DNA of 64,000 bases, from NCBI RefSeq assembly GCF_000473165.1, contig NZ_KI421504.1:372596-436595 (forward strand), written 5' to 3'. Numbering within the stretch: position 1 is the stretch's first letter; each line of letters begins with the position of its first letter. Origin of the DNA: Leisingera aquimarina DSM 24565. GTDB taxonomy: Bacteria > Pseudomonadota > Alphaproteobacteria > Rhodobacterales > Rhodobacteraceae. A model generated the notes under the pieces. It was not told where the DNA came from. It saw only the letters and a program-made list of their open reading frames with translations, and did not search any database. Positions 6,421-23,037 of this stretch are shown here, piece by piece. A program made the position numbers and the translations under genes.

Positions 6421-6451
6421 AAAAATGAGGCGCACCGCACTGGCGCGCCTC
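6421..6451 (-). terminator. Rho-independent terminator of the amt operon
   Basis: Inverted repeat GAGGCGC (6427-6433) and GCGCCTC (6445-6451), followed on the minus strand by ATTTTTAC. It lies just past the stop of the small membrane protein gene. Confidence 0.7.
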
Positions 6452-6465
6452 TCGATGCACTCAGG

Positions 6466-6681
6466 TCAGTATTTTTCGAGCAAGGAGTTTATTTTATCCC
6501 TATCTCCAATGCGCTTAGCCTTTTCCAGATGTGCGCCTTCGCGAACAAATTGGATCCGGTGCCAGCCAATCCAGAAGATCACGCCCAGGACAACCATCAG
6601 CCCTTCGGATCCTTGGAAAGGATACACTGCCCCAACCTCTGCCAGGTCCACCGCCCAGCTGTCGTAACCGATCGTAGACAT
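6466..6681 (-). CDS. Small single-pass membrane protein downstream of Amt
   Basis: A 71-residue protein with one predicted transmembrane helix at about residues 29-47 (GLMVVLGVIFWIGWHRIQF) and a charged C-terminal tail (KAKRIGDRDKINSLLEKY). The start codon follows AGGAG. It begins 11 bases after the amt stop and precedes a terminator, so it is the second gene of a two-gene operon. I do not recognise a named family. GlnK usually holds this place next to amtB, so the protein may be an accessory of this transporter; that is inference from position. Confidence 0.75.
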   Translation of the reverse strand: MSTIGYDSWAVDLAEVGAVYPFQGSEGLMVVLGVIFWIGWHRIQFVREGAHLEKAKRIGDRDKINSLLEKY

Positions 6682-6692
6682 TTTAGTTCTCC

Positions 6693-8066: not shown

Positions 8067-8133
8067 TGTTTTGCCCTCCTGTTGGCAGTTCTCCCGGGCT
8101 TTTTTGCCTCTTGGGAATATTATTTTCATTTAT

Positions 8134-8162: not shown

Positions 8163-8527
8163 TAATCATGTGAAAGTTTGTTCACCCCCAGAAAAGCTCA
8201 AACTGCCATCCAAACGCCTTTACTCCACTCCTGCGGGCAGCCTAAAGCCCACCCTCCCAAGGGCTTAAGGCGTTCTGCCCGCATCCCCCTCCCAGCTTCT
8301 CCCCAGACCCCAGGCTTTAGGCAAAGGCGTGGATCAATCGTGGATTTGCGACAGAATCAAGCGAATCTCCGGCACCGGAAGGGGCGATTCTCCCCTGAAA
8401 CGGGGCACTCTGCGGCTGTCTCAACCACAAGCAGCCTCCCGAAAAGACCATTTCCGGCCAGCCGATGCCGCAAACCCGTCCGAAATCGGCCTTTTAAGCA
8501 AAATCTTTTTCCTGCTAGGAATAATCG
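8163..8527. other. Non-coding region with alternative hairpins between amt and dmmD
   Basis: No convincing gene. The stretch 8235-8280 folds into a long hairpin: GGGCAG pairs with CTGCCC, and inside it CCTAAAGCCC (8241-8250) pairs with GGGCTTAAGG (8261-8270) with one mismatch. The same left arm, GCCTAAAGCC (8240-8249), is perfectly complementary to GGCTTTAGGC at 8313-8322, so two folds compete. Further short inverted repeats occur near 8364-8400. No T run follows either fold. Confidence 0.55.
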
Positions 8528-8593
8528 TTGACACAGCGCCCCCTCTTTTGGCTAACTGGACCGGACCAATGGAACCAAATCAAGAAATTTGGT
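8528..8593 (+). promoter_or_regulatory. dmmD promoter and operator
   Basis: TTGACA (8528-8533) and GCTAAC (8551-8556) are 17 bases apart. The block after the -10, TGGACCGGACCAA, and the following perfect inverted repeat ACCAAAT-6-ATTTGGT (8574-8593) closely match the region upstream of tmm. The half-sites TTGGT/ACCAA resemble those recognised by FadR-subfamily GntR regulators such as PdhR. Confidence 0.65.
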
Positions 8594-8620
8594 CCACCAC
8601 TATTCAGGGAGACACAGACG

Positions 8621-9766
8621 ATGGCCATTATCTGGCGGACCTCAGCACTGGCACAGCGGCACAAAGAAATCGGCGGCGAGCTGGAAGATTGGAACGGCAT
8701 GGGAACCGCCTGGTTCTATGACCACACACCCGAACGCGCCAAGGCCGACTATGAGGCGGTCCGCACCAAAGCGGGCCTGATGGACGTGTCGGGCCTCAAG
8801 AAAGTCCACGTCGTGGGTGAACACGCAGCCCAGGTCATCGACCGGGTCACCACCCGCAACGTCGAAAAGATCATGCCGGGCCGCTCCACCTACGCCTCGA
8901 TCCTCAACGATCAGGGCAAATTCGTGGACGATTGCATCATCTACCGCCTGTCGGTGAACAGCTGGATGGTTGTGCATGGCACCGGCACCGGCATGGAGCA
9001 GCTGAATACCGTTGCAGCGGGCAAGAACTGCTCGGTGATCTTCGACGACAATCTGCACGACATGTCGCTGCAGGGCCCCGTCGCAGTGGATTTCCTGGCC
9101 GAATACGTCCCAGGCATCCGCGATCTGGCCTATTTCGGCATTATCCAGACCAAGCTGTTCGGCTGCCCCGTGATGATCTCGCGCACCGGCTACACCGGCG
9201 AGCGCGGCTATGAGATCTTCTGCCAGGCCAAGGACGCGGTTCACCTGTGGGACAGCATCCTGAAAGAGGGCAAAGGCTTGGGCATCGTGCCGGTGCAGTT
9301 CTCGACGCTCGACCTGCTGCGCACCGAAAGCTACCTGCTGTTTTACCCGGGCGACAACTCCGAGACCTATCCGTTCAACGACGAAACCTGCGGCGACACC
9401 CTGTGGGAGCTGGGACTGGAGTTCACTGTTTCTCCGGGCAAGACAGGCTTCATCGGCGCCGAAAACCACTATGCCGCTGAAGGCAAGGAGCGGTTCAAGA
9501 TCTACGGTGTCGTGCTGGAAGGCACCACCCCAGCGGACGAAGGCGCAGACCTGCTGCAAAACGGCGAAAAAGTCGGCGTTGTCACTTACGGGATGTATTC
9601 CGACGTCAACAAGCACAACGTGGGAATTGCCCGGATGCCGGTGGCCTGCGCCAAGCCGGGCACCGAGCTGACAGTCCGCAATGGTGATGGCATCGAGATT
9701 GCCGCCACCGCCGAAGAAATGCCCTTCTACGACAAGGACAAATCGATCCGCACCGCAAAGGGCTGA
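8621..9766 (+). CDS. dmmD: GcvT-like aminomethyltransferase of dimethylamine degradation
   Basis: A 381-residue protein of the glycine-cleavage T-protein/aminomethyltransferase fold, with the family segments TRNV, DDCIIYRL, SRTGYTGERGYEIF and the C-terminal barrel. In Roseobacters the dmmDABC cluster is needed for growth on dimethylamine; DmmD is thought to receive the one-carbon unit on tetrahydrofolate as the monooxygenase releases it. The ATG at 8621 is chosen for CAGGGAGA upstream; longer in-frame starts run into the promoter. It is the first gene of the dmm operon, with the operator block directly upstream. Confidence 0.88.
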   Translation: MAIIWRTSALAQRHKEIGGELEDWNGMGTAWFYDHTPERAKADYEAVRTKAGLMDVSGLKKVHVVGEHAAQVIDRVTTRNVEKIMPGRSTYASILNDQGKFVDDCIIYRLSVNSWMVVHGTGTGMEQLNTVAAGKNCSVIFDDNLHDMSLQGPVAVDFLAEYVPGIRDLAYFGIIQTKLFGCPVMISRTGYTGERGYEIFCQAKDAVHLWDSILKEGKGLGIVPVQFSTLDLLRTESYLLFYPGDNSETYPFNDETCGDTLWELGLEFTVSPGKTGFIGAENHYAAEGKERFKIYGVVLEGTTPADEGADLLQNGEKVGVVTYGMYSDVNKHNVGIARMPVACAKPGTELTVRNGDGIEIAATAEEMPFYDKDKSIRTAKG

Positions 9767-9777
9767 TCCGGATCCCG

Positions 9778-9800
9778 GGCGCCCCCCGGTTGGGGGCGCC
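9778..9800 (+). terminator. Hairpin between dmmD and dmmA
   Basis: A perfect 9-bp stem, GGCGCCCCC (9778-9786) and GGGGGCGCC (9792-9800), with a 5-base loop, but followed only by TGCTTTCGTT. It may be a partial terminator or an RNA-stability element that sets different levels of DmmD and DmmABC. Confidence 0.5.
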
Positions 9801-9838
9801 TGCTTTCGTTCACCCGGACTGCAGGAAAAGCGACCCAC

Positions 9839-10450
9839 ATGTCTAAGACCGTATTCCCCCCTTCCATCAATAGCCGCCCCGTCTATGGCGAGCTTGAGGC
9901 CCGTCCCGGCAGCGGCCACCTGATGATTGCCGACGCCGAAGGTGCAGAGGCGATCCTTGACCTGGCCAAAGCCACAGACAAGGATTTCTGGGCCAAGGCC
10001 CACGTCATCTATATCCCCAAGAACACCGGCACCAAATACAGCAGCCAGCTGGAAAAGCTGGGTGCTGGCCAGTATTACGCCGGTCCCTCCTATGAAGCCG
10101 CGCAAAGCCGCATCCGCCGCGCCCTGCAGGACTGCCATATGGGCACCCAGGTCTATCTGACCGGCACCGAAAGCCTGATGGGCCAGGCCATGGCCGAGGC
10201 CACCGCGGCCGGCATTCCGCATACCGCGATCCAGACTGAGCACCGCGGCTCCACCGCACGCCGCATGCAATGCGTGCACTGCAAGGGCATCACCGAGGAC
10301 GTCACCACCGACCCCTTTGAATGCAGCCACTGCGGCCTCAGCCTGTTCGTGCGCGATCACTATTCGCGCCGCCTTGCGGCCTTCCAGGGGGTGCGGGTAG
10401 ATGCCGAGGATCCGGGCAACATCCCCAAAAAAGTGGAGCTGTTCAAATGA
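9839..10450 (+). CDS. dmmA: Dimethylamine monooxygenase subunit DmmA-like
   Basis: A 203-residue protein with a C-terminal cysteine knuckle: CVHC at about 145-148 and CSHC at about 162-165, suggesting a bound metal such as zinc or a rubredoxin-like iron. This arrangement matches the DmmA-like family of the three-part dimethylamine monooxygenase, which oxidises dimethylamine to methylamine and formaldehyde with oxygen and a reduced pyridine nucleotide. The stop overlaps the dmmB start (ATGA), indicating translational coupling. Its exact job in the complex is not evident from the sequence. Confidence 0.85.
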   Translation: MSKTVFPPSINSRPVYGELEARPGSGHLMIADAEGAEAILDLAKATDKDFWAKAHVIYIPKNTGTKYSSQLEKLGAGQYYAGPSYEAAQSRIRRALQDCHMGTQVYLTGTESLMGQAMAEATAAGIPHTAIQTEHRGSTARRMQCVHCKGITEDVTTDPFECSHCGLSLFVRDHYSRRLAAFQGVRVDAEDPGNIPKKVELFK

Positions 10451-11412
10451 GTGCTGGCACCGCAAAACTGAATGTCACCGTGGCTGAAGTCAAACCGATC
10501 AACGATCTCGTCACCCGATTCAAATTTGTCCGCACCGGCGGCGGCGACCTGCCCACCTTTTCGGGCGGCGCCCATACCGTGGTCGAGATGCAGGACGGCG
10601 ATATCACCCGGCTCAATGCCTATTCGCTGATGTCCAACCCGGCCGACCGCGGCGCCTATACCATCTCCGTGCGGCGCGATGACGAAGGCCGCGGCGGCTC
10701 CAAATTCATGCACAGCCAGGTGAAAGAGGGCATGGAGATGGTGATCTCCAACCCTGTGAATCTGTTCTCGCTGGATCTGCGCGCCAAGAAACACCTGATG
10801 CTGGCCGGCGGCATCGGCATCACGCCTTTCATGGCGCAAATGCATCAGCTCACCATGATGGGGGGCCAGTTCGAGCTGCACTACTCGGTGCGCAACGCCT
10901 CGCTTGGCACCTACGCCGAGGAGCTGAAAGCAAAATATCCGGGCAAGGTGCATATCTATCATGACGACCAGGACGAGGCGATCGACCTCAATACCCTGAT
11001 CGCCACTCAGCCACTGGGCACCCATGTGTATGTCTGCGGCCCCAAGGGCATGATCAACTGGGTACACGGCACCGCCGAGGACATGGGATGGCCGCGTGAG
11101 GCGGTGCACTCCGAGGAATTCCTGGCCCCGGCCTCCGGCAAGCCGTTTGAGGTAAAGCTGGCGGTCTCAGGCAAGGTGATCCAGGTCGGCGAACATCAGT
11201 CACTGCTCGAAGCCATCGAAGCAGCGGGCGTTGACGCCCCCTATCTCTGCCGCGGCGGTGCCTGCGGCCAGTGCGAAACCAATGTCGTCGGTTATGATGG
11301 CAAGTTTCTGCACTACGATCACTGGCTCGACGACGAACAAAAGGCCGGCGGCAAACACATCATGCCCTGCGTCTCACGTTTCGAGGGCAAGACCCTGGTT
11401 CTGGATCGCTGA
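10447..11412 (+). CDS. dmmB: Dimethylamine monooxygenase reductase subunit (flavin/2Fe-2S)
   Basis: A 321-residue phthalate-dioxygenase-reductase-like protein. The N-terminal flavin domain is followed by an NAD(P)-binding domain (LAGGIGITPF; CGPKGM) and a C-terminal plant-type 2Fe-2S ferredoxin with cysteines at about 268, 273, 276 and 308. It would pass electrons from NAD(P)H to the heme subunit encoded next. The ATG at 10447 overlaps the dmmA stop. Confidence 0.92.
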   Translation: MSAGTAKLNVTVAEVKPINDLVTRFKFVRTGGGDLPTFSGGAHTVVEMQDGDITRLNAYSLMSNPADRGAYTISVRRDDEGRGGSKFMHSQVKEGMEMVISNPVNLFSLDLRAKKHLMLAGGIGITPFMAQMHQLTMMGGQFELHYSVRNASLGTYAEELKAKYPGKVHIYHDDQDEAIDLNTLIATQPLGTHVYVCGPKGMINWVHGTAEDMGWPREAVHSEEFLAPASGKPFEVKLAVSGKVIQVGEHQSLLEAIEAAGVDAPYLCRGGACGQCETNVVGYDGKFLHYDHWLDDEQKAGGKHIMPCVSRFEGKTLVLDR

Positions 11413-11422
11413 GGAAAAGAAA

Positions 11423-12466
11423 ATGACCATTCAATTCAACGACGAAACCTTCTACGGCGATTTCACCTTCAAGAACTCGGACTGGGCCATCAAACGTTTC
11501 CCCTTCCCGTTCCACGAAGACAGCTACATGTATTCGGTGAACATGGAGCCGCATAAATCTTACCGGCCAGGCTCGGTGTTCGAACGCACCTTTGACGTGG
11601 ACGAACATTATGTCGCGGAAATGAAGGACCGTGCCCGCGTGCTGGCCAACGACCCGCTGCGCTGTCAGTCACTGCCGCATATGACACTGGCCGGCTGGGA
11701 CCTGGTCGAGCTGATCATGGAGGCCAAGGCGGCCGAATACCCGGATCTGTTCGAACTGCATAAGGACGGCAACCGCTGGCGCTGGGTGAACAAACCGCTG
11801 GGCATTGACGATACCTTCACCTTCCTCGACGAAAGCACCCTGCCATACGGTCCGATGGAATACATTACCCGTCAGACCCAGGGCGACTTTGCGGTACTGG
11901 ACCAGCGCGACGACAACCTGTGGATGGACGCCGGCATGGTCACCACCCAGGCGGACTGGAGCCTCGATTTCGACATCGGCATGAATTTCTTTGAATGGCA
12001 CGCTCCGGTGCCCAAGGCGAACGAAATGGGCATCTTTGTGCGCGCGCTGAAGTTCCTGTTGAACATTCAGCAGGGCCAGCCGGCCCGGCGCCTGAATTGG
12101 ACGATGACCGTCAATCCGCTGCTCGACACCTCGCCTGAGAACTACCACAAATGGGGCACCATGAAGCAGGGGCTGACGATGGAGAACATCGGCGAAAAGC
12201 AGCACCTGCGGGTCGAGCTGCAGACCTTCTTCCGACTACCCCGCTCCAATGCGCTGGTGTTCCCGATCCGCTGCTACCTGATCCGGTTTGAGGATCTGGT
12301 CACAGTGCCGAAATGGGCCCGCCGCCTGCACCGGGTGATCCGCGACCTGCCCGAGGAACTGGCCACTTACAAAGGCTTCATCGACAACCGCCCGCTGATG
12401 GTGGAATACCTGTCGCAGTTCGACGATGGCAGCCCGACCTCGGATGGTATCTGGGCAGACGACTGA
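11423..12466 (+). CDS. dmmC: Heme-dependent oxidative N-demethylase subunit (DUF3445)
   Basis: A 347-residue protein of the DUF3445/heme-dependent oxidative N-demethylase family, the catalytic oxygenase part of dimethylamine monooxygenase. Family features include aromatic-rich blocks around FPFPFHED, the LRVELQTFFRLPRSNALVFPIRCYL stretch and the C-terminal YKGFIDNRPLMVEYLSQFDDGS. The heme ligand cannot be assigned by eye. Start at 11423 follows GAGGAAAAG and lies 10 bases after the dmmB stop. Confidence 0.9.
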   Translation: MTIQFNDETFYGDFTFKNSDWAIKRFPFPFHEDSYMYSVNMEPHKSYRPGSVFERTFDVDEHYVAEMKDRARVLANDPLRCQSLPHMTLAGWDLVELIMEAKAAEYPDLFELHKDGNRWRWVNKPLGIDDTFTFLDESTLPYGPMEYITRQTQGDFAVLDQRDDNLWMDAGMVTTQADWSLDFDIGMNFFEWHAPVPKANEMGIFVRALKFLLNIQQGQPARRLNWTMTVNPLLDTSPENYHKWGTMKQGLTMENIGEKQHLRVELQTFFRLPRSNALVFPIRCYLIRFEDLVTVPKWARRLHRVIRDLPEELATYKGFIDNRPLMVEYLSQFDDGSPTSDGIWADD

Positions 12467-12771
12467 TTCCGAAAGCTTCCGGCGGGCCGTCCCTACCCCC
12501 TGTCAATCAGGCCCGCCTCACTGACTGCCGCCGCCTCTGGCCCGGCAGTTTCTTTTTGTCTAGAGATAAGTGGTGTTGCACTCCCGCCCCTGCAGCAGAA
12601 GGCAGGCTCCGCCTACCCTTGCGCAGCGTTGGGCCGGGCAGCGCGCTGCGGGCAGTTTCGGCAACATCAGCTCCAGAACGCAACCGGGCCGCGCATCGCG
12701 CGGCGCCACGCCCAACTGTGCAGGGACATCTTCAGGTGTTCCGCAGCAGGCGGGAGCGCTCCGGCTGCGGC
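12467..12771. repeat. Intergenic repeat between convergent dmmC and the XRE regulator
   Basis: No gene seen. Just after dmmC is an 8-bp inverted repeat, GGCGGGCC (12481-12488) and GGCCCGCC (12510-12517), that may end transcription although no T run follows. From about 12627 to 12770 is a copy of a dispersed element: a GTTGGGC...GCAGCGC part, a CCGCGC-ATC-GCGCGG hairpin, then GCCACGCCCAAC (12705-12716) and GGCGGGAGCGCTCC (12749-12762). Related copies lie near 39873-39957 and 53300-53546. Confidence 0.6.
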
Positions 12772-13428
12772 TCAGCTCGACTGCGGATACGAAATGATTG
12801 ACAGATAGCGTGCGGGCAGCTTGATCAGCTGTTCCGGCCCATGCGGCGCGTCGGCATCAAAAAACAGCGTGTCTCCAGGCTTCAACGGAAAGACCTTGTC
12901 GCCATGCCGGTAATCCACCTCACCTTCCAGCATATAGAGCATTTCAACGCCATCATGCTGGAAGGTCGGGAAGACATCCGACTCTTCGGTCAGGGAGATC
13001 ATGTAAGGCTCCACCAATACACCCGAGGCATTGGCACCCAGATGCCCCAGCAACTGATACTGATGGCCCGCCCGCGTTCCAGCACGCTCGGTCTCGACGC
13101 CTTCACCCGACCTGGTATGCACCGCTTCGCGGGTTTCTTCAAAACGGCGGAAGAAAGACGTGATCGGAACGCTCAGCGCGTTGGCCAGCAATTGCAGCGT
13201 AGTCAGAGACGGGGATGTATTGCCGTTCTCGATCTTTGACAGCATTCCGATCGACAGCCCGGTCAGCGTGGCCAGATCGGCCACAGTGATCCCCTGCTGG
13301 CGCCGGAACGACCGGACCTCGCGGCCAATGGCCACTTCGAGAACTTTTTCCGCGCCGTCGCGGACCCGGTGCGGATCTTGAGAAAGGTTATTTGCCACTG
13401 CGTCGCTATCGTCTTTGGGTTTAGCCAC
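12772..13428 (-). CDS. XRE-family regulator with C-terminal cupin domain
   Basis: A 218-residue cytosolic regulator. The N-terminal half has a helix-turn-helix of the XRE type (VADLATLTGLSIGMLSKIEN; SLTTLQLLANAL), and the C-terminal third is a cupin sensor (MLYMLEGEVDYRHGDKVFPL; GDTLFFDADAPHG). The start is taken as GTG at 13428 because AAGGAAG lies upstream; the frame runs on to 13509 without a comparable site. It is convergent with dmmC. Position makes it a candidate regulator of the dmm or liv operon, but nothing in the sequence shows its target. Confidence 0.88.
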   Translation of the reverse strand: MAKPKDDSDAVANNLSQDPHRVRDGAEKVLEVAIGREVRSFRRQQGITVADLATLTGLSIGMLSKIENGNTSPSLTTLQLLANALSVPITSFFRRFEETREAVHTRSGEGVETERAGTRAGHQYQLLGHLGANASGVLVEPYMISLTEESDVFPTFQHDGVEMLYMLEGEVDYRHGDKVFPLKPGDTLFFDADAPHGPEQLIKLPARYLSIISYPQSS

Positions 13429-13609
13429 TGTGTTATCTTCCTTATGGACGGCTTCTGACAAGCGCGCAGCGGGCGATACGTAAAATCTTTTCCGGACGCA
13501 AGAAACCACGCGAAAATTATTTTACTGGCATTACCACTTTTTCCCAAGCCCTCACCGCCACAGGAAAGAAATTTGTTGCCGTTCCGTCAGCCCGGCAGGA
13601 GCGCAGACA

Positions 13610-13639
13610 AGAAACCCGGACCATCTGGCCCGGGTTTCT
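13610..13639 (-). terminator. Hairpin terminator of the liv operon
   Basis: AGAAACCCGG (13610-13619) and CCGGGTTTCT (13630-13639) form a perfect 10-bp stem with a 10-base loop, about 30 bases past the last gene of the operon on the minus strand. The T run is short. Confidence 0.6.
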
Positions 13640-13668
13640 GCATGCCGGCATTATTGGCTTGGGTACAC

Positions 13669-14277
13669 TCAGTCATCCAGCAGCAGCAAGCAGGCGCCAA
13701 GAACTTTGCGCGTGCCATCAAACACCACTGGTTTTTCGCCGCGCCAGCGGCTGGCATGTCGGTGGCCGACCGGCCAGCCGGAAGTCAGGCTGCGCAGGGT
13801 CTCACCAGTCTCTGCTGCGATCCTGCCCACCCGGGTTTTCAAATTGGCATGAAAAGTATCCCGGTGCAGTGCTTCCATCCGCAAATGAAACAGCGATGAC
13901 CGGCTGCGCGGTGCGATCTGCATCTGCTCCACCTGCTCTGCCGCTCCGGCCCAGATCCGCAATGCGCGGGCTTGCAACTTTTCCGCCTCCGCCAACGCCC
14001 CGGCACGAAACTGCAGCCTTGCCAGATTGGCCGGTGTTGCTGCCCGGCGCAGATCCGTCGCCGGAAAAACAACCCGCGCCAGCAGGTCCGCCAGCCGGAA
14101 CAACCGCATCGCATTGCGCGGACGGTCACGTCCAGCCGCAGCCAGCGCCCGTTCCATCAACCGCTCCCAAGCCAGATCAGCGCGGGACCAGCCGGCCTCG
14201 CGCGCGACCCGCATTTCCGCATCGGCCTTAAAGCCCCAGATACGCGGCGCGGACGTGTTCGTTTCCGTGAAGCTCAT
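13669..14277 (-). CDS. Protein of unknown function, last gene of the liv operon
   Basis: A 202-residue, mostly helical and arginine-rich protein with TPR-like repeats of small and hydrophobic residues (for example RLFRLADLLARVVFP and LQARALRIWAGAAEQVEQM). No signal peptide or membrane segment. I do not recognise the family. The ATG at 14277 lies 50 bases inside livF, so it is translationally coupled to the transporter ATPase, and a terminator follows. Its conservation with the ABC genes would show whether it serves the transporter. Confidence 0.72.
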   Translation of the reverse strand: MSFTETNTSAPRIWGFKADAEMRVAREAGWSRADLAWERLMERALAAAGRDRPRNAMRLFRLADLLARVVFPATDLRRAATPANLARLQFRAGALAEAEKLQARALRIWAGAAEQVEQMQIAPRSRSSLFHLRMEALHRDTFHANLKTRVGRIAAETGETLRSLTSGWPVGHRHASRWRGEKPVVFDGTRKVLGACLLLLDD

Positions 14278-14935
14278 CTGCAGGACCCTCCATTGCTGCA
14301 TTTCCAGTTTCCAAAACATAAGCGTAATCGGCCAGTTCCAGTGCCAGCTCGGCATTTTGCTCGACCAGCACCACCGACAGCCCGTTGGCGTTGATCTCCT
14401 CGACGATCCGGGCGATTTCCTCGACGATCACCGGCGCCAGCCCCATCGATGGCTCATCCATCAGCAACAGCCGCGGTTTGGACATCAGCGCCCGTCCTAT
14501 CGCTAGCATCTGCTGCTCGCCGCCCGACATCGTCTTGGCCATCTGGGTGCGCCGCTCGCGCAGGCGCGGGAAGCGGGTGAAGACATCCTCCAGATCGTCT
14601 TCGATGGCGTCTTTATTTCTCCGCAGAAACGCTCCGGTGCGCAGGTTCTCCTCCACCGTCATGTCGGGGAAGATCCGCCGCCCTTCGGGCACATGGGCGA
14701 TGCCATTGGCCACCACCTTATGCGCTGGCAGATGGTCAATCCGCTTGCCCTCGAATGTGATCTCACCCTCAGTGATTGGCAGCATCCCCGACATCGCCCG
14801 CAACGTGGTGGTCTTGCCCGCCCCGTTGCCGCCGATGATGGTGACGATCTTGCCCTCAGGCACCGCGACCGAGATGTTCCGGATCGCGTTGATCTTGCCG
14901 TAGTTGACGGCGATGTTCTTCATCTCAAGCAACAT
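14228..14935 (-). CDS. livF: Branched-chain/amide-type ABC transporter ATP-binding protein LivF
   Basis: A 235-residue ABC ATPase with Walker A GGNGAGKTTT, signature SGGEQQ and Walker B LLLMDEPSMGL, of the LivF type. The start is ATG at 14935, eight bases after GGAGG; an in-frame TTG at 14950 is less likely. It overlaps the livG end by 11 bases. With LivG it powers the importer encoded by this operon. The substrate is unknown; the receptor resembles urea/short-chain-amide binders, and the context points to a methylated amine or related N-compound. Confidence 0.93.
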   Translation of the reverse strand: MLLEMKNIAVNYGKINAIRNISVAVPEGKIVTIIGGNGAGKTTTLRAMSGMLPITEGEITFEGKRIDHLPAHKVVANGIAHVPEGRRIFPDMTVEENLRTGAFLRRNKDAIEDDLEDVFTRFPRLRERRTQMAKTMSGGEQQMLAIGRALMSKPRLLLMDEPSMGLAPVIVEEIARIVEEINANGLSVVLVEQNAELALELADYAYVLETGNAAMEGPADELHGNEHVRAAYLGL

Positions 14936-15692
14936 GGCGCGCGCCTCCAAGATAGGCCTCGATCACCGCCGGATGATTGCGGATCTCCTGCGGTCCGCCT
15001 TCGGCCAGGAACTTACCAAAACTCATGCAGGTGATGGTGTCGCACAGTCCCATGATCGCCTGCATGTCATGCTCGACAATCAGGATGGTGATCCCGTCCG
15101 CCTTCAGCCGCTCCATCAGATCCATCATCTGCCGGGTCTCTTCCGGGTTCATGCCGGTAAAGGGCTCGTCCAGCAGGATCACATCCGGGTGGCTGGCATA
15201 GGCCACCGCCATGCCCAGCGCCCGCTGGTGGCCGTGGCTCAGATCGCCTGCCCGTTCCTGCATCACATGGTCCAGGCCAAAGAACTCCAGCGCTTCCTTG
15301 GCCCGCGCCTCAGCCCCGCTGCGGTCCTCGCTGTCCCAGCCGATGATCGCGGCAAAGATATTGGGGCGGAACGGCATATGGGTGCCAACCAGCGCGTTCT
15401 CCAGCACGGTCAGCTCGGCAAACAGTGTCGAGTGCTGGAACGTCCGCACCACCCCGCGCCGGGCCACCTCATGCATCTGCAGGCCGGAGATATCCTCACC
15501 GCGCAGCAGCACCTGCCCCTCGGTGGGCTTGTAGAAGCCCGAGATCATGTTGAAGGTCGTAGTCTTGCCCGCCCCGTTAGGGCCGATCAAACCGTGAATG
15601 GACCCATGCGCCACCTTGAACGACAGGCTGTCCACCGCCGTCAGGCCGCCAAACTGCATGGTCAGGTCTTTGACTTCAAGAAAATCGGTCAT
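14925..15692 (-). CDS. livG: Branched-chain/amide-type ABC transporter ATP-binding protein LivG
   Basis: A 255-residue ABC ATPase with Walker A GPNGAGKTTT, signature LSHGHQRALGMAVA and Walker B VILLDEPFTGMNPEE. LivG-type proteins carry the longer insert seen here after the Walker A region. It overlaps livM by four bases, a sign of coupled translation. Confidence 0.93.
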   Translation of the reverse strand: MTDFLEVKDLTMQFGGLTAVDSLSFKVAHGSIHGLIGPNGAGKTTTFNMISGFYKPTEGQVLLRGEDISGLQMHEVARRGVVRTFQHSTLFAELTVLENALVGTHMPFRPNIFAAIIGWDSEDRSGAEARAKEALEFFGLDHVMQERAGDLSHGHQRALGMAVAYASHPDVILLDEPFTGMNPEETRQMMDLMERLKADGITILIVEHDMQAIMGLCDTITCMSFGKFLAEGGPQEIRNHPAVIEAYLGGARHVA

Positions 15693-16669
15693 TCTGCCGG
15701 CCTCCGTTCCGGCGCACCCTCAGCAGCGCGTCTTTTGGTGAATTTCTGCACGATGCTTTCCAGCCCGTTAGGCAGGAACAGGATCGACAGGATCATGATG
15801 GCGCCATAGATCAGCGGCCGCATCTGCTCGAGACCCAGCTCACGCAGCACAATCTCGTTGATGACGGTGAGAACCACACAGCCCAGGATCGGGCCGTAAA
15901 AGGTAGCGGTGCCGCCAACGATCGCCCAGGTCAGCACATAAACCATCAGGTCGATATCAAAGGCGTTGGGGTTAATGGTGCCAATGTAATGCGCGAGCAA
16001 AGCGCCGGAAATCCCGGCAAAGCCCGAGGCAATGGCAAAGGCAAGCGTACGGTAAGCCCGCACATTCACGCCAGAGGCCTGCGCCAGCTTGTCCTGCCAA
16101 TGCACCGCATGGAAGGTCAGGCCAACCGGAGATTTCTCGATACGCCACAGGATCCACAGGCACACAGCGACAATGATCCCTGCAAAATAGTAGTAGGACG
16201 TCGGCTCGAAGAAATCGAACTGGTAGAATCCGACCGAGAAATCCGGCATCGGGTCGATCCCCTTGATCCCCTTGGCGCCGCCAAACGGGTCACGGAACCG
16301 CTTCCACAGCAGGCGGATGATCTCGCCGGCGGCAAAAGAGCCGATCAGGAAATAGAACCCTTTCATCCGGAACAGCGGGAAAGACAGCAGTACCGCAATC
16401 AGCGCCGCAATCACCCCGCCCAGCAGCATCGAAATAGGAACATAGACTCCAAGTTTTTTGGTCAGTAGGGCCGAGGAATAGGCCCCCACCCCCATGATCA
16501 CCACATGGCCCAGCGACCATTCGCCGGTCAGAGTCAGCAACCGGTAGCTGGCCACCAGCAGCACGTTGATGGTCAGGAACACCAGGATTTCCTGCTGCGA
16601 AAAGCTGAGCCCATGCGGCAGGGCGATCAATGCGGCCAGCGCCGCGATCCAAATCAGGAACTTAGGCAC
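15689..16669 (-). CDS. livM: Branched-chain/amide-type ABC transporter permease LivM
   Basis: A 326-residue inner-membrane permease with eight to ten hydrophobic helices and the LivM-type cytosolic loop (TFHAVHWQDKLAQASGVNV). The start is taken as GTG at 16669, which overlaps the livH stop and follows GGGAG by about ten bases; TTG at 16684 is a weaker choice. Confidence 0.92.
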   Translation of the reverse strand: MPKFLIWIAALAALIALPHGLSFSQQEILVFLTINVLLVASYRLLTLTGEWSLGHVVIMGVGAYSSALLTKKLGVYVPISMLLGGVIAALIAVLLSFPLFRMKGFYFLIGSFAAGEIIRLLWKRFRDPFGGAKGIKGIDPMPDFSVGFYQFDFFEPTSYYYFAGIIVAVCLWILWRIEKSPVGLTFHAVHWQDKLAQASGVNVRAYRTLAFAIASGFAGISGALLAHYIGTINPNAFDIDLMVYVLTWAIVGGTATFYGPILGCVVLTVINEIVLRELGLEQMRPLIYGAIMILSILFLPNGLESIVQKFTKRRAAEGAPERRPAE

Positions 16670-17531
16670 GGTCGGCACTCCCAAACAGGCCGGTCGGCTT
16701 CACAATCAGCACAACCAGCATCAGCGACAGCCCGACGATGTCAGCCAGCACGCCATCATAGAAAGTGGTCACAAAGGTATGCACTAGCGCATAGGCGACC
16801 GAGGCCACGATGGCCCCCTCCAGCGAGCCGACCCCGCCCACGATGATGACGATAAAGGCGGTGACAATCACCGAATGCCCCATATGCGGGTTGACCGAGA
16901 CCAGCGGCGCAGTCAGCGCCCCGGCGATCCCGGCCAGACCGGCGCCGATGAACATGGCAATCCGCGCGGTCATGGTGATTGAAATCCCCTGCAGCGCTGC
17001 CGCCTCAGGATCCTGCGCCGAGGCGCGCAGCGCCCAGCCGAATTTGGTCCGCTTCAAAAAGTACCAAAGCGCCGACAGCAGTACGATTGCGGCGATGATC
17101 ACATAAAGCCGCGCCACTGGCAGCCGCACCTTCTCCGTGAACACAATGACTTCTTGCGTCACTGGCGGGATATGCACCATCCGCACGCCGAATCCCATAA
17201 CCGCCAGCGCCTGCAGGATCATCAGAAACCCGATCGAAGCGACCAGCCCGCCAAGTGGATTGTCCTTCAAAGGCCTGAACAGCGCCTTTTCCATCAACAG
17301 GCCCAGACAACCGACAAACAACAGGCCAATGGCAACAGCGACAAAGAACGGCAGGTGCAGCTCTGCATAGAGCGCCACAATCGCATAGGCGCCCGCCATG
17401 AACAGTTCGCCATGGGCAAAGTTGATCACGCCCATGACACCAAAAATCAGCACAAGCCCCACAGCAACAAGGGAAATATAGCTCGCAGCATACACGGCGT
17501 TAAGGCCGGTCTGCGCCAGAAGGTCCAGCAT
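16662..17531 (-). CDS. livH: Branched-chain/amide-type ABC transporter permease LivH
   Basis: A 289-residue inner-membrane permease of the LivH family. It shows the family motif GVMGVINFAHGELFMAGAY near residues 30-48 and the EAA-like loop RASAQDPEAAALQGI. It follows the substrate-binding protein gene by 75 bases and overlaps livM. Confidence 0.93.
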   Translation of the reverse strand: MLDLLAQTGLNAVYAASYISLVAVGLVLIFGVMGVINFAHGELFMAGAYAIVALYAELHLPFFVAVAIGLLFVGCLGLLMEKALFRPLKDNPLGGLVASIGFLMILQALAVMGFGVRMVHIPPVTQEVIVFTEKVRLPVARLYVIIAAIVLLSALWYFLKRTKFGWALRASAQDPEAAALQGISITMTARIAMFIGAGLAGIAGALTAPLVSVNPHMGHSVIVTAFIVIIVGGVGSLEGAIVASVAYALVHTFVTTFYDGVLADIVGLSLMLVVLIVKPTGLFGSADRA

Positions 17532-17606
17532 CGGATTGTCTCTTTATTCAATCGGTCTGCGGCGCAAAGAATTAACTCCGCGCCGCGAGTTTGCCTGCCT
17601 GACAGG

Positions 17607-18896
17607 TCAGCTGCGCTGATTCCACATCTGATCATAGGCCTGCATGTGCTTGATCAGCAGATCACCGTGTTTCGCATACCAGTCAGGAATCGAACGGAAG
17701 TCCTTGATCCTGGCCTTACCGCTTTCGATCGCCACCACCGGCCAGTCGCCGACCAGCGCATTGTCGATGCCAAACAGTTCGGTGCCCCACCAATCCGCGT
17801 CACCAAAGGCATGCTTGCCCTTACCCTCTTTCATCGCAGCTGCCACCGCATCCGGGCTAGCCGATCCAGCTTTCTCCGCTGCTGCCTTCCACAGATCCAT
17901 GATCGAGGCATATTCCCAGCTCACCGCGCCCCATTGGCCCGGGTGGCGGGTATTGAACGCCTCATAAAACCCGTTCGGATCGGTGAAATTGATGTTATCG
18001 CCGTTCAGCGCCGGATCATCGAAATCCGGGAACTGGAAGACGAAACCTTCCATAAACTCTTCCGAGGTTTTGGCGATCATCTGATCATAGAAATCCGCGG
18101 TGCAGGAGATGATCTGCCCGGTGAAGCCCTGCTGGAACAGCTGTTCGGCAATCGGATGCACATAGTCACTGTAGCAGGTATCGAGACAGACAATGTCCGG
18201 GCTCTTGCTGATCAGCCGGGTGACAACCGGTGCAAAATCAGTGGTTGCCGGGTCAAACAGCAGCGGCGCGTCCAGCATCTCGATCCCTGCCGCCTCAAAG
18301 GCCGCCAGATAGGTCGCGACCGAGGGCAGGCCAAGCGCATCATCCTGGGCGCACATCACCGCGGTCTTCAGCTCCGGTTTGTTCTCGGCCAGCCACTCCA
18401 CACCGGTCACATTGTAGATCGGGTGCACCTCGGCCGGTGCGATCAGCGTATTGGTATCGGGTGACAGGTCCGACGGCAGCAGGGTGGAGAACAGCATGCC
18501 GGTCTTGTCCGCCACCGGCTGCACGCCGGGCCAGGTGTCACCGCCCAGCATCATGATAAAGCTCACACCGTCCTCGCGGATCAGCTTGGTGGCCCCGGTG
18601 CGCGCCTTGGCCGGATCGTATTCGTTGTCATAAGACACGAACTCGACGTCATAGCTGCCATCGCCCAGCTTGATGCCGCCCGCGGCATTCACCCGCTCGG
18701 CCCAGATCTGGCAACCGTCCAGCCCGGGCTTGCCCCAGGCCGCCACCGCGCCGGTTAATGGCGCCAGAAAGCCGATCCTGATTGTATTGCCCGCCGCCAG
18801 TGACGCGGCCGGCAGCCCGGCACTCATCGCGGTGACCGCTGTCGACTTGAGGAACGTCCTCCGGGTCAGCCCCGATTTCACGATCTTGGAAATCAT
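17607..18896 (-). CDS. ABC transporter substrate-binding protein (urea/amide type), Tat-exported
   Basis: A 429-residue periplasmic binding protein of the type 1 fold, with a twin-arginine signal (LTRRTFLKS) and a hydrophobic segment ending near ASLAAG. The mature part begins IRIGFLAPLTG and resembles urea and short-chain amide receptors. It is the first gene of the liv operon and divides the promoter region with the divergent GntR gene. Its promoter carries CCTAATTGGTTCAG, nearly identical to the tmm promoter core, which ties uptake to methylamine catabolism. Ligand unknown. Confidence 0.92.
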   Translation of the reverse strand: MISKIVKSGLTRRTFLKSTAVTAMSAGLPAASLAAGNTIRIGFLAPLTGAVAAWGKPGLDGCQIWAERVNAAGGIKLGDGSYDVEFVSYDNEYDPAKARTGATKLIREDGVSFIMMLGGDTWPGVQPVADKTGMLFSTLLPSDLSPDTNTLIAPAEVHPIYNVTGVEWLAENKPELKTAVMCAQDDALGLPSVATYLAAFEAAGIEMLDAPLLFDPATTDFAPVVTRLISKSPDIVCLDTCYSDYVHPIAEQLFQQGFTGQIISCTADFYDQMIAKTSEEFMEGFVFQFPDFDDPALNGDNINFTDPNGFYEAFNTRHPGQWGAVSWEYASIMDLWKAAAEKAGSASPDAVAAAMKEGKGKHAFGDADWWGTELFGIDNALVGDWPVVAIESGKARIKDFRSIPDWYAKHGDLLIKHMQAYDQMWNQRS

Positions 18897-19373
18897 CTTC
18901 TTCTCCCATGTTGGACCCGCCTGTTTTGCGGCGGTGTGTTCTGCAGGATGCGGTCTCTGTCTTTCGCGCCCCTTGGTTTCAACTCAACACAACTGAACCA
19001 ATTAGGGTAAATTGGCCCCATCCTGAACCAAGGCTAGCAGCGAGCTGGTTCACCGCAAAGAAATTTTCTTTCATTCAGCGAACCAAAAAGGCACCAATAC
19101 AGGACCATTCATCCAGAAATGCGGCAAAACCAACCCGCAAAACGGCATAAAAACATGATCTTGCGGCGCATATTATCCAAACACCCCCGCAACCAATTTA
19201 AGAACCAATTTTTTTCAACTTTCTTGCCGCCGGGCAGAAGAATCGTTAGCCTTAAGACCAATCCCAGCTGTGTCAGACGGTTGCATTGAGGCCGCCAAAA
19301 CGGGTAACTGCACATCTGTCACAGCGATCAGGCGCAGGGGATTCCCCCGCCCATCCGACCCGGAAAACAGACC
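18897..19373. promoter_or_regulatory. Divergent control region of the liv operon and gntR
   Basis: This 477-base region has no gene and is rich in AACCAA/TTGGTT half-sites. A perfect inverted repeat CCAATT-6-AATTGG lies at 18998-19015 and TGAACCA-15-TGGTTCA at 19024-19052; further copies occur near 19081 and 19189-19207. On the minus strand CCTAATTGGTTCAG matches the tmm promoter core and could hold the -10 of the liv operon. The dense sites suggest autoregulation by the GntR protein and control of the transporter. Confidence 0.6.
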
Positions 19374-20099
19374 ATGAGCTCAGCGGAAGACACCACCTCG
19401 CAAATCCTGACCACCCATTCGGTTGGCGCTACAGTGCAAGTCGTGATCGACACGCTGTTCGCCCGGATCAAGGCGGGCACCTACCCGGTGGACACCCGGC
19501 TGCCGTCAGAACGCACGCTGGCCTCGGAGCTGGGCGTCGCCCGCAACACCGTGCGCGAAGCCTTGGACGTGCTGACAGGCCAGGACGTGATCCATCGCCG
19601 ACCCGGGTCAGGCAGTTTTGTCAAATTCCGCTCTGATCCCAAACCCGAAACATCCTATTCTTCACTGGCCAAAGAAGTTTCGCCGCTGGATCATTTGGTG
19701 GTACGCGGCATTCTGGAGCCAGAACTGGTGCGCCTTGCAGTGATCAACATGACTCCGCGCCAGATCGAAGAACTGGACCAGATCCTCTCCCGCGTCGAAG
19801 CTGTGCGCACTGATCCCGGGGAATTCATCGAGGCTGAGGAAGATCTCTACCGCAAGATTGCCGAGGGCACCGGCAACCCGCTGCTGCACTCCTGCTATGA
19901 GTTGACAATCGAGGCCTGCCGCCTGTCCTACCGCACTGCGCTGCGCCGCCGCCACCTGACGCCGCAGCGGATGCAGGAATACCAGAAACGCTACAACACG
20001 CTGTTCAACGCCATCGCCTCACGCGATGTGGAATCCGCGATGGAATTCATCAAACTGCATTTGATTGACGAGCAGAATCTGCTGCTGCAGGAGGTCTGA
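19374..20099 (+). CDS. GntR-family transcriptional regulator, FadR subfamily
   Basis: A 241-residue regulator. The N-terminal winged helix shows the GntR pattern (DTRLPSERTLASELGVARNTVREAL at about 43-67, then GQDVIHRRPGSGSFV), and the C-terminal helical FCD-type domain has the acidic/His positions expected for a metal-bound ligand pocket. It faces the liv operon across a half-site-rich region. Operators of the FadR subfamily (for example PdhR) are TTGGT/ACCAA palindromes, the type found in front of dmmD, tmm and the receptor gene, so this is the leading candidate for their regulator. Confidence 0.9.
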   Translation: MSSAEDTTSQILTTHSVGATVQVVIDTLFARIKAGTYPVDTRLPSERTLASELGVARNTVREALDVLTGQDVIHRRPGSGSFVKFRSDPKPETSYSSLAKEVSPLDHLVVRGILEPELVRLAVINMTPRQIEELDQILSRVEAVRTDPGEFIEAEEDLYRKIAEGTGNPLLHSCYELTIEACRLSYRTALRRRHLTPQRMQEYQKRYNTLFNAIASRDVESAMEFIKLHLIDEQNLLLQEV

Positions 20100-20120
20100 G
20101 CCCGGCCGGGCCACGCCCGC

Positions 20121-21422
20121 TCAGCCTTTCACCGCGCGCGAACTAACCTCGCTGCCAGGCGCACCGCTTTCCAGCCGCTGGTGCCACAACTGCCCCAATG
20201 CCGCCATTTCGGATTTCAGCAATGCGGAATGCTGCGCCAGCCAGCCAGGTATCGACTTAAAACCGGCAATCCGCGCCTTGCCTTCCTGGATGATCACGAC
20301 AGGCCAGTCACCGACCAAGGCATTGGAAATACCGAAAATATCCTCGCCCCACCACTCCGCATGGCCGAACGCGTGGGTGACATGGCCCAACTGTTTCATC
20401 GCTGCCAGCACCGATGGAGGTTCGACAGAACCTGCCTTCTCCACCGCGCTGTGCCAGATGTCGAGGATCGCCACATACTCCCAGCTTACTGCCGACCAGC
20501 TGCCTGGGAAGCGGCGGTTGTATTCCTCGTAAAACACATGCGGGCGGTTAAAGAAAAACGCCTTTTCCCGCAGCAGCGGATCGTCAAAATCCGGAAACTG
20601 AAAAACCACGCCCTCCATGAATTCGGGCGAAGTCCGCTCCACCAGCTGATCATAGCCATCCATGGTGCAGCTGATGATCTGCCCCTTAAATCCTTTGGCA
20701 TAGGCATATTCCGTCATCGCATGCACCATAGGCGCATAGGACGAACACCAGCACAGGATATCGGCACCGCTCTCCAGCATCGGGTCCACCACCGGCCCCG
20801 GATCGCTGGAACCCGGATCATACTCCACCTCGCGCAGGATCGTTTTGCCTGCGGCCTTAAACGCCGCGCGGTAAACCGCCCGCGACGGCATCCCAAGCAG
20901 ATCTGCTTGGCTGCATAAAGCTACGGTTTTCAAACCCGGCTTGTTTTCCGCCAGCCAGGCCACGCCAGTCACGTTCTGGATCGGGTGCGCTTCGCTCGGC
21001 GCGATCAGATAGGGCGTATCGGGCGACAAATCGGATGGCAGCAGGGTCGAAGTCAGCACCTTGTTGCGCATCAGAAAATCGCGCACCGGCGCAAAGGTAT
21101 CGCCACCCAGCATCAGCATCAGCTTGACTTTATGCTTCTGCGCCAGCTCCACCGCGCCCTCCAGCGAGCGTTCCGGATCATAGCCGCAATCATAGGAATG
21201 GATGCGGATCGGGTAGCGGCGGCCGCCAATCAGCACCCCGCCGGCCTTGTTCAGCCCGTCTTCCCAGATCCGGCAGCCGTTCAATCCAGGCAGCCCCCAG
21301 CTCTCCACCGGGCCCGAAAGCGGGCCAAGAAAGCCGATATTCACTGATTCTGTCATTCCCACCGACAACCGCGGCAGCGCCGCGCGGGCCGTCAGCTGGT
21401 GTACAAAACTGGTCGTCTTCAT
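20121..21422 (-). CDS. Substrate-binding-like protein without clear signal peptide
   Basis: A 433-residue paralogue of the receptor at 17607-18896, aligned along its whole length (IGFLGPLSGPVESWG; LMLMLGGDTF; TLLPSDLSPDTPYLIAPSEAHPI; EFMEGVVFQFPDFDDP). In place of a Tat or Sec signal it starts with MKTTSFVHQLTARAALPRL, which lacks a hydrophobic core. ATG 21422 has TTAGGA upstream; the alternative at 21356 would also give a leaderless protein. It is convergent with gntR and divergent from tmm. A cytosolic ligand sensor, as AmiC is for amides, is possible; an unexported remnant is the alternative. Confidence 0.85.
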   Translation of the reverse strand: MKTTSFVHQLTARAALPRLSVGMTESVNIGFLGPLSGPVESWGLPGLNGCRIWEDGLNKAGGVLIGGRRYPIRIHSYDCGYDPERSLEGAVELAQKHKVKLMLMLGGDTFAPVRDFLMRNKVLTSTLLPSDLSPDTPYLIAPSEAHPIQNVTGVAWLAENKPGLKTVALCSQADLLGMPSRAVYRAAFKAAGKTILREVEYDPGSSDPGPVVDPMLESGADILCWCSSYAPMVHAMTEYAYAKGFKGQIISCTMDGYDQLVERTSPEFMEGVVFQFPDFDDPLLREKAFFFNRPHVFYEEYNRRFPGSWSAVSWEYVAILDIWHSAVEKAGSVEPPSVLAAMKQLGHVTHAFGHAEWWGEDIFGISNALVGDWPVVIIQEGKARIAGFKSIPGWLAQHSALLKSEMAALGQLWHQRLESGAPGSEVSSRAVKG

Positions 21423-21498
21423 GGCTTGAATCCTAACAACAATTCTCTGCCCCGCCAGTCCAATCAGTGAAAAATCTTATTCCTTCCGTGAAAATATG

Positions 21499-21574
21499 TT
21501 GACTCTGCGGTGCAATTTTGGACCTAATTGGATCAGACCAAAAGAACCAAATGCTAATATTGGTCCGTACCAAT
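21499..21574 (+). promoter_or_regulatory. tmm promoter and operator
   Basis: TTGACT (21499-21504) and CCTAAT (21523-21528) form a sigma-70-like pair 18 bases apart. Downstream are TTGGATCAGACCAA, ACCAA-9-TTGGT (21546-21564) and ATTGGT-4-ACCAAT (21559-21574), the last ending 11 bases before the start codon. The whole block aligns with the dmmD promoter. Confidence 0.65.
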
Positions 21575-21585: not shown

Positions 21586-22932
21586 ATGACCAAGAAACGA
21601 ATTGCCATCATCGGCGCCGGCCCCTCTGGCCTGGCGCAGCTGCGCGCATTCCAATCCGCCGCCAACAAAGGTGAAGAAATCCCGGAAATCGTCTGCTTTG
21701 AAAAGCAGGACAATTGGGGCGGTTTGTGGAACTACACCTGGCGCACCGGCCTGGATGAAAACGGCGAGCCTGTGCATTGCTCGATGTACCGCTATCTGTG
21801 GTCCAACGGCCCCAAGGAAGGCCTTGAATTTGCCGACTATTCCTTTGAAGAGCACTTCGGCAAGCAAATCGCATCCTACCCGCCGCGCGCGGTGCTGTTC
21901 GACTATATCGAAGGCCGGGTGAAAAAGGCCGACGTGCGCAAGTGGATCCGCTTCAACTCAGCCATCCGCTGGGTCGAATACAACGAGGACGCCGGCAACT
22001 TCACTATTACCGTGCACGACCACGCCAAGGACAGCACCTACAAGGAAGACTTCGACCACGTGATCTGCGCCTCGGGCCATTTCTCCACCCCGAACGTGCC
22101 GTTCTACCCCGGTTTCGACACGTTCAACGGCCGCGTCCTGCACGCCCATGACTTCCGCGACGCCCGCGAATTCGCCGGCAAGGACATCCTGATCCTCGGC
22201 GCCTCCTACTCGGCCGAAGACATTGGCTCGCAATGCTGGAAATACGGCGCCAAGTCGATCACCACCTCCTACCGCTCTGCTCCGATGGGCTTCAAATGGC
22301 CGGACAACTGGGACGAAGTGCCGGCGCTGGAGTCGGTCAACGGCAACACCGCAACTTTCGCGGACGGCACCCGAAAGGAAGTTGACGCAATTATCCTTTG
22401 CACCGGCTACAAGCATTTCTTCAGCTTCCTGCCCGACGAATTGCGCCTGAAAACCGCCAACCGCCTTGCCTCGGCTGATCTGTATAAGGGCGTGGTTTTC
22501 GCCCATAATCCCAAGATGTTCTATCTGGGCATGCAGGATCAGTGGTTCACTTTCAACATGTTCGACGCCCAGGCCTGGTGGGTCCGAGACGCGATCATGG
22601 GCAAGATTGAAATCCCCGCAGACAAGAACACCCTGCTTGCCGACGTGAAGGAACGTGAAGCGCGCGAAGAGGCCTCGGATGACGTCAAATATGCGATCAA
22701 ATACCAGGGCGACTATGTGCTGGAACTGATCGAAGAGACCGACTACCCGACCTTCGACGTGGCCGGCGCCTGCCAGGCGTTCTATGAATGGAAGGGCCAC
22801 AAGGCCCAGGACATCATGGCCTTCCGCAACAACTCCTACAAATCGGTTATCACAGGCACCATGGCGCCTGTCCATCACACCCCGTGGAAAGACGCCCTGG
22901 ATGACTCGCTGGAGGCCTACCTGCAGAACTAG
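21586..22932 (+). CDS. tmm: Trimethylamine monooxygenase
   Basis: A 448-residue class B flavin monooxygenase that converts trimethylamine to trimethylamine N-oxide with NADPH and oxygen. FAD-binding GAGPSG is at residues 10-15, the NADPH-binding motif GASYSAED near 204-211, and the late motif CTGYKHFF near 288. The N-terminal [13 protein letters not shown] and the [13 protein letters not shown] stretch are characteristic of bacterial Tmm. Start at 21586 (ATG) follows GGGAGA. TMAO demethylase, the next enzyme, is not within the window. Confidence 0.95.
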
Positions 22933-23037
22933 GATCTGCCTGCTTTGGCAGATCCGCCTGCGCCGTTTTCCTTCCTGGGCGGCGCAGGCACCTTTCGCCG
23001 CTGTGCGAATCCCTCTTCGCAAGCTAATATCCACTTT

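Follow-up and report, generated by a model that had tools for sequence, protein, structure and literature searches.

A candidate TmoR operator shared by the tmm and dmmD promoters of the Leisingera group

The shared promoter block and its genomic setting

The window analyzed here (the whole 64,000-nt stretch, C1:372596-436595 of the 5.34-Mb genome of Leisingera aquimarina DSM 24565) contains the trimethylamine monooxygenase gene tmm, the dmmDABC operon, a Liv-type ATP-binding cassette (ABC) operon and a GntR-type regulator gene, from here on referred to as tmoR (Table 1). The promoters of tmm and dmmD carry a common block of TTGG/CCAA half-sites, and this block, its distribution among relatives and its presumed binder TmoR are the subject of this study. 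The block at tmm lies in the intergenic region shared by tmm and the divergent 20121-21422 gene. Gene names gmaS, mgs, dmmB and dmmC were assigned in this analysis from family hits.

The original prediction, made from the letters of the window, had named matching sequences just downstream of the -10 boxes of dmmD and tmm, and these are present: CTAACTGGACCGGACCAA at 8552-8569 in the dmmD promoter and CTAATTGGATCAGACCAA at 21524-21541 in the tmm promoter, each followed by the middle half-site GAACCAAAT (8572-8580 and 21544-21552). The inverted repeats described for dmmD, tmm and the ABC receptor gene likewise read as claimed at 8574-8593, 21559-21574 and 18998-19015. At tmm, the first palindrome begins at 21528, in contact with the likely -10 box, and the second 32 bp further on, at 21560. 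In a 23-row alignment (A1), the TGAC of the -35 box is invariant and the preceding T nearly so.

Local alignment of the dmmD and tmm promoters extends over about 120 bp, taking in the -35 box and sequence further upstream, and reaches a score of 76; 2000 dinucleotide shuffles averaged 19.3 and never exceeded 39. A composite pattern derived from the dmmD and tmm places themselves, TGGAYCRGACCAANNGAACCAAAT, occurs with up to three mismatches at exactly these two places in the genome (control: 0). Scanning the genome with a sequence-only model built from 23 promoter rows, with the window's dmmD and tmm promoters in the training set, returned the dmmD and tmm blocks (E 7.6e-19, 1.8e-16; 150 of 564 first-look candidates scored), the third and last match up to E 10 being the tmm block on the other strand (E 0.10). 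In this genome, the block is confined to the tmm and dmmD promoters. That the similarity of the two promoters is an effect of chance or base composition could be argued from the palindrome alone, which is not enriched genome-wide (10 sites versus 16 for a control pattern); genome-wide palindrome counts were therefore not used as stand-alone evidence. However, the shuffles and the two-place result make this explanation very unlikely, as do two results detailed below, the link of the block with TmoR and the hits in genomes outside the training set. A first pattern, TTGGTCC-N(0-30)-ACCAA, gave 20 matches (control: 10) and was rejected as too loose.

The block had been predicted to be common to three promoters, including that of the Liv-type ABC receptor gene. 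This was borne out for dmmD and tmm but not for the receptor promoter, whose best alignment scores against the other two (26-27) are within the shuffle range and which is absent from the model's genome matches; full membership was thus not supported. The sequence named for it, CCTAATTGGTTCAG on the minus strand, is present, at 18993-19006 rather than 18995-19010. A regulon of three promoters with the receptor also under TmoR, which would be compatible with our preferred explanation, is suggested by the nine TTGGT/ACCAA half-sites found in 477 bp of the window's receptor promoter (shuffle mean 1.69; 0 of 500 shuffles with as many), by a conserved CCAGTT / AAATTGG-like sequence downstream of the presumed -10 box in seven aligned receptor loci, and by receptor-gene matches that adjoin tmoR or tmm outside Leisingera too (L023, L024, L029/L033). 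Since some of the half-sites are conserved, a weaker link of the receptor to the block is possible. On the other hand, half-site numbers vary from 2 to 9 among the seven loci (2 to 5 in the six relatives), the fraction of shuffles as high ranging from 0 to 0.41, and the best palindrome in ten receptor promoters read matches 7-9 of 10 positions. Overall, we regard inclusion of the receptor gene as conceivable but doubtful. The receptor-like proteins encoded at 20121-21422 and 17607-18896 are about 53% identical to each other, the latter with adjoining transporter genes and the former without, and the ligands of both could be methylated amines. In the window and in L010, L011 and L018-L020, the cupin regulator gene and tmoR flank the Liv-type ABC operon; no Liv-type ABC operon match was found between these two genes in L008, L009 and L012-L017.

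The regulator gene had been described as sitting among further half-sites. Half-sites do occur near 19374, mostly on the receptor-promoter side. Of 36 sequences taken from upstream of tmoR, each 162 nt long and reaching 12 nt into the coding sequence, 13 contain at least one and 7 at least two TTGGT/ACCAA half-sites, and two Roseovarius records (L027, L028) have a 9/10 palindrome 16 nt before tmoR. Self-regulation of tmoR is thus not a general feature but may occur, possibly in L027 and L028.

Table 1 Features of the window discussed in the text
Feature	Position	Strand	Basis
Glutamine-synthetase-like gene (probable gmaS), three glutamate-synthase-like genes (probable mgs genes), ammonium transporter gene	1994-8129	-	Family hits
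dmmD -35 box, TTGACA	8528-8533	+	Sequence
dmmD likely -10 box, GCTAAC	8551-8556	+	Inference
dmmD operator site 1 (candidate), CTGGACCGGACCAA, 9/10 positions of TTGGW-N4-WCCAA	8556-8569	+	Sequence
dmmD middle half-site, GAACCAAAT	8572-8580	+	Sequence, alignment A1
dmmD operator site 2 (candidate), TTTGGTCCACCA, altered in window species	8588-8599	+	Sequence
dmmD (GcvT-like), first gene of dmmDABC	8621-9766	+	NCBIfam hits
dmmA to dmmC, whole span	9839-12466	+	
dmmA	9839-10450	+	Pfam; gene letter assigned here
dmmB, reductase	10321-11412 (open reading frame; start codon unsure)	+	Pfam; gene letter assigned here
dmmC, HODM-like	11231-12466 (open reading frame; start codon unsure)	+	Pfam; gene letter assigned here
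Cupin regulator gene	Between dmm genes and Liv-type ABC operon	-	Pfam
Liv-type ABC operon, including receptor gene	13669-18896	-	Pfam
Liv-type ABC receptor gene	17607-18896	-	Pfam Peripla_BP_6
Partly conserved TTGG/CCAA half-sites past the presumed promoter of the receptor gene, without an N4 palindrome	18993-19015	-	Sequence, alignment
tmoR, GntR-FCD regulator, presumed block binder	19374-20099	+	Pfam GntR 4.3e-17, FCD 7.9e-23
Periplasmic binding protein gene (receptor-like), divergent from tmm	20121-21422	-	Pfam Peripla_BP_6
tmm -35 box, TTGACT	21499-21504	+	Sequence
tmm likely -10 box, CCTAAT	21523-21528	+	Inference
tmm operator site 1 (candidate), TTGGATCAGACCAA, 10/10	21528-21541	+	Sequence
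tmm middle half-site, GAACCAAAT	21544-21552	+	Sequence, alignment A1
tmm operator site 2 (candidate), TTGGTCCGTACCAA, 10/10	21560-21573	+	Sequence
tmm, trimethylamine monooxygenase	21586-22932	+	NCBIfam NF058570, 832 bits (cut-off 675)
AraC-type regulator gene, probable TmaR ortholog, not presumed block binder	22945-24042	+	Pfam/NCBIfam, comparison with relatives

Distribution of the block, TmoR and TmaR among relatives

Repression of tmm by TmoR was reportedly described in an older study (Environ Microbiol 2016). In Ruegeria pomeroyi, TmoR (SPO1553) represses tmm and its DNA-binding domain binds the tmm promoter (Ptmm), with dimethylamine (DMA) as the main and trimethylamine N-oxide (TMAO) as the lesser effector (PMC13390433). 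In the survey reported there, the TmoR gene is found near tmm, in most cases separated from it by a single gene of unknown function (PMC13390433). The window shows the same order of tmoR, a receptor-like gene and tmm, and the encoded regulator has a GntR-type DNA-binding domain, here combined with an FCD domain. By its family and by this gene order, the GntR gene at 19374 very probably represents a TmoR ortholog. In a scan for related loci, which returned no R. pomeroyi locus, its product proved 93-95% identical to the GntR proteins of ten records named as Leisingera.

In a family sample of 198 genomes, tmm was identified in 46 (E 1e-100 or better) and a GntR match in 14 (E 1e-35 or better). 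Thirteen of these matches, including that of the window genome, are at least 56% identical and come from genomes with tmm in every case; the remaining match, from G064, has 42% identity, and no tmm match is listed for that genome. To compare tmm upstream regions with and without the GntR gene, as suggested with the original prediction, the 13 TmoR-bearing genomes were set against 32 of the 33 tmm genomes without TmoR (G102, whose contig begins inside tmm, was dropped). At least two TTGGT/ACCAA half-sites in the 120 bp before tmm are found in 11/13 versus 1/32 promoters (Fisher p 8.7e-8; the exception without TmoR is G195), a best palindrome of at least 9/10 in 10/13 versus 2/32 (p 5e-6) and an outward pair of at least 9/10 in 8/13 versus 3/32 (p 6.6e-4), all three measures having been picked after the promoters had been inspected. 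The block thus co-occurs with TmoR. In a tmm tree of 34 rows, in which TmoR-negative promoters were represented where tmm was complete (17/32), five label changes were counted, with three independent pairs on well supported branches and five on all branches; none is contrary to the link. Within one clade, G010 has both tmoR and the block, and both are lacking in the eight other rows.

Scanning 394 family genomes with the model resulted in 19 matches at E 0.001 or better in 17 genomes. Sixteen of them are located at the receptor-like/tmm intergenic region, among these G256, where the contig ends before tmm, and G195, which has tmm and no receptor-like match; two are located at dmmD (window genome, G210) and one, in G128, at neither. 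Nine of the 17 genomes were already known as TmoR bearers, seven of these being in the training set, and six of the other eight (G210, G232, G256, G298, G340, G391) encode a GntR protein of 58-89% identity, while G195 and G128 encode no such close GntR protein. The newly found blocks are 64-88% identical to the nearest training row. In G248, which belongs to the window genome's genus, there is no block at E 0.001 and no GntR match at E 1e-20; tmm and dmmD were not searched there.

The block could also be the site of another regulator of the pathway, above all of the AraC-type regulator TmaR. In R. pomeroyi, TmaR (SPO1584) is the master activator and binds both Ptmm and the dmm promoter (Pdmm) (PMC13390433), and its probable gene directly follows tmm in the window. 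However, AraC matches of at least 52%, taken here as probable TmaR, are found in 8/13 genomes with TmoR and 14/29 tmm genomes without TmoR (29 of the 33 were covered by this search), and thus do not track the block. Five genomes (G039, G046, G134, G138, G153) have TmoR without such an AraC match, with clear blocks in G039, G138 and G153 and weak ones in G046 and G134. Further, TTGGT/ACCAA halves fit the consensus halves of FadR-type regulators, TKGT/ACMA (PMC4494728). As this distribution does not fit, TmaR was rejected as block binder, and we consider it quite improbable that a regulator other than TmoR is responsible. In several genomes, the AraC match lies a few kb downstream of dmmD, following a dmmC-like gene in the two inspected; SPO1584 is likewise positioned downstream of the dmm genes (PMC13390433). 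Adjacency of the AraC gene to mgd was not confirmed. A separate TTCC/GGAA-like element is found just before the -35 box at tmm and dmmD (~8500-8533, 21470-21504), with and without TmoR, and by eye also at mgsA, upstream of 6331. It is present in 9/32 tmm promoters without TmoR (shuffle maximum 3), 7/27 other dmmD promoters (maximum 4), 7/9 Leisingera-group dmmD promoters (maximum 2) and 3/21 tmm promoters with TmoR (maximum 3, not above). This element is a possible activator (TmaR) site.

The dmmD promoter of the Leisingera group

The term Leisingera group is used here for the window together with all named Leisingera records and with the closely related genomes, MAGs included, that underlie L016, L019 and L020. 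This group has the block in 14/14 dmmD promoters read (window, L008, L009, L012-L015, L017, L088-L093), with an exact TTGGW-N4-WCCAA in 11 of them, and the model detects it at dmmD of G210 as well. It is absent from 29/29 other dmmD promoters read, including those of L021, L022 and L030, whose GntR proteins are 83-88% identical to that of the window. That dmmD promoters outside this group lack the block was not part of the original prediction. Six of the 14 Leisingera-group dmmD promoters were compared with twelve out-of-group tmm promoters, giving best scores of 73-102, and with fifteen of the 29 other dmmD promoters, giving best scores of 29-41. This similarity shows the tmm-like ancestry of the dmmD promoter. 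In the best promoter tree, Leisingera-group dmmD promoters form one group (support 73/73, 76% of bootstrap trees), support being weak because the sequences are short; a single origin of the captured promoter is probable.

The block also persists where the downstream coding sequence has been exchanged. Window by window, L008 and L012 DNA is 60-72% identical in the stretch before the promoter, 84% in the window holding the promoter, 70-80% inside dmmD and 82-96% after it. The dmmD of L009 belongs to the same variant as that of L008 (89-94% identical), and the block is retained in both, as well as in L093, whose dmmD start is of the same variant. These identity values suggest replacement of about the dmmD gene alone in L008 and L009. 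The dmmD proteins of L008, L009 and L093 are 66-67% identical to that of the window in otherwise Leisingera-type surroundings. A second dmmD-like gene of 41% identity is located elsewhere in the window's genome (G000:C2:136221-137282).

These data bear on a further alternative, in which TmoR binds the tmm block only and the captured copy at dmmD is useful for its core promoter or for an upstream activator element, its operators being relics. The dmmD/tmm alignment does extend through the -35 box into the sequence before it, site 2 at dmmD is altered in the window species, and TmoR has no effect on dmm in R. pomeroyi (PMC13390433). Yet 11/14 Leisingera-group dmmD promoters keep an exact N4 palindrome, the block outlasts exchange of the dmmD coding sequence (L008, L009, L093) and a separate genus has a site before amt-dmmD, which makes this alternative unlikely. 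The latter site is found in G138, where a perfect palindrome starts 42 nt before amt (model E 0.0013). In both G138 and G039, tmoR adjoins amt-dmmD instead of tmm, and the tmm promoters still have the block; the G039 tmoR-amt-dmmD region has scattered half-sites only. Half-sites are also visible by eye at dmmD of G053 and G086, inside an otherwise different promoter; by half-site counts, these two are no different from G134 and G174. A possible further TmoR target is found in G153 (L039, upstream of 5871), where a perfect TTGGTCCGAACCAA begins 21 nt ahead of the start of a gene near tmm that belongs to the ammonium transporter family.

Architecture of the candidate operator, proposed mechanism and comparison with known systems

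The preferred spacing of the palindrome was assessed in 24 of 35 TmoR-bearing tmm promoters (omitting L009, the Leisingera-type L011-L017, L024, L028 and L033; L021 has no usable tmm start). An exact TTGGW-N4-WCCAA is present in 15/24, a spacing of 3 in 2/24 and any other spacing from 0 to 11 in 0/24. Spacings of 3 and 4 are both absent from the 32 tmm promoters of genomes lacking TmoR, one of which has a spacing of 11. The original prediction had likened the repeats to PdhR-type palindromes, which is accurate for the inverted TTGGT/ACCAA half-sites, as in FadR-subfamily operators, but not for the spacing. Sites of this subfamily usually have 3 or 2 nt between GT and AC, PdhR having 3, while most HutC-subfamily sites have 4 (PMC4494728). 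Because the spacing is mostly 4, the block was not filed as a PdhR-type operator, and for an FCD-domain GntR protein such a spacing is unusual.

Taken together, we think it likely that the block is the TmoR operator and that dmmDABC of the Leisingera group is under TmoR control via a captured tmm-type promoter. We infer binding by TmoR, repression, the response to DMA and the start sites from R. pomeroyi and from the sequence. In the proposed mechanism, two TTGGW-N4-WCCAA palindromes about three helical turns apart, with a half-site between them, would constitute the operator and would cover the -10/start region of tmm and dmmD together with the first transcribed stretch. TmoR dimers seated on the palindromes, on approximately the same helix face, would block RNA polymerase, and DMA or, more weakly, TMAO would release them. 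The dmmDABC operon would have come under TmoR control in the Leisingera group when a tmm-type promoter, complete with operators, took the place of its former promoter, probably in a single event, and release of TmoR by DMA would therefore make dmm directly inducible by its own substrate. One local repressor thus probably controls both the trimethylamine (TMA) and the DMA step. The regulon with a local GntR regulator that had been predicted for these steps is accordingly retained for tmm and dmmD, where the block tracks the GntR gene, and not for the receptor gene.

Several observations weigh against this reading. Loss of TmoR in R. pomeroyi leaves tdm and the downstream genes unchanged (PMC13390433), so TmoR control of dmm is proposed here from sequence alone. 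The spacing of 4 departs from the 3 or 2 of most FadR-type regulators (PMC4494728), the palindrome alone lacks genome-wide enrichment, and operator site 2 at dmmD is altered in the window's own species. The association of block and TmoR is partly due to shared descent, the independent pairs in the tmm tree are too few for significance, and the half-site measures were chosen with the promoters in view. G195, a fragmented assembly, has the block at tmm together with a best GntR match of 36% identity; a contig may be missing, or this genome (L087/L108) may use another regulator. The 394-genome scan missed 4/13 TmoR-bearing genomes (G002, G078, G086, G134), for which model searches of the loci gave E 2.3e-4 in G086, 0.004 in G078, 0.19 in G134 and nothing in G002. 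The same locus search found nothing at dmmD of G053 and G086, in the G039 tmoR-amt-dmmD locus or at the G153 amt site.

The main text of PMC13390433 contains no mention of a motif, operator, palindrome, consensus, binding site or Leisingera, and no other paper on a TmoR operator was among the matches listed for the open-licence literature. Repression of tmm by TmoR has already been published (PMC13390433); new here are the candidate operator, with its unusual spacing, and a tmm promoter captured by dmmD. If correct, DMA oxidation in Leisingera would be induced directly by DMA through TmoR, unlike in R. pomeroyi, and the regulon of a pathway relevant to marine nitrogen would have grown by taking over an entire promoter, not through the gradual emergence of sites. 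We lean, with some reserve, towards the broader view that the dmm operon was rewired by capture of a complete tmm promoter including its operators, which would place it under a repressor whose reported main effector, DMA, is its own substrate, that this captured switch outlasted gene replacement, and that comparable links may have arisen along different routes in other lineages (the G138 site, the G053 and G086 half-sites).

With regard to known systems, the block resembles FadR-subfamily operators (PdhR, LldR, GlcC) in its TKGT/ACMA halves and in having weaker additional half-sites near the palindrome, known in the family at 7-12 nt from the palindrome center, but differs in its spacing of mostly 4, usual in the HutC subfamily, instead of 3 or 2 (PMC4494728). 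TmaR (SPO1584) controls both the tmm and dmm promoters (PMC13390433), and its probable ortholog is encoded at 22945, but presence of AraC matches does not follow the block. Another close counterpart is TmoR/Ptmm of R. pomeroyi DSS-3, which is alike in regulator family and in a gene position near tmm, usually with one gene between; whereas TmoR of R. pomeroyi affects only tmm in the pathway (PMC13390433), the dmmD promoter of the window carries the same block as that of tmm.

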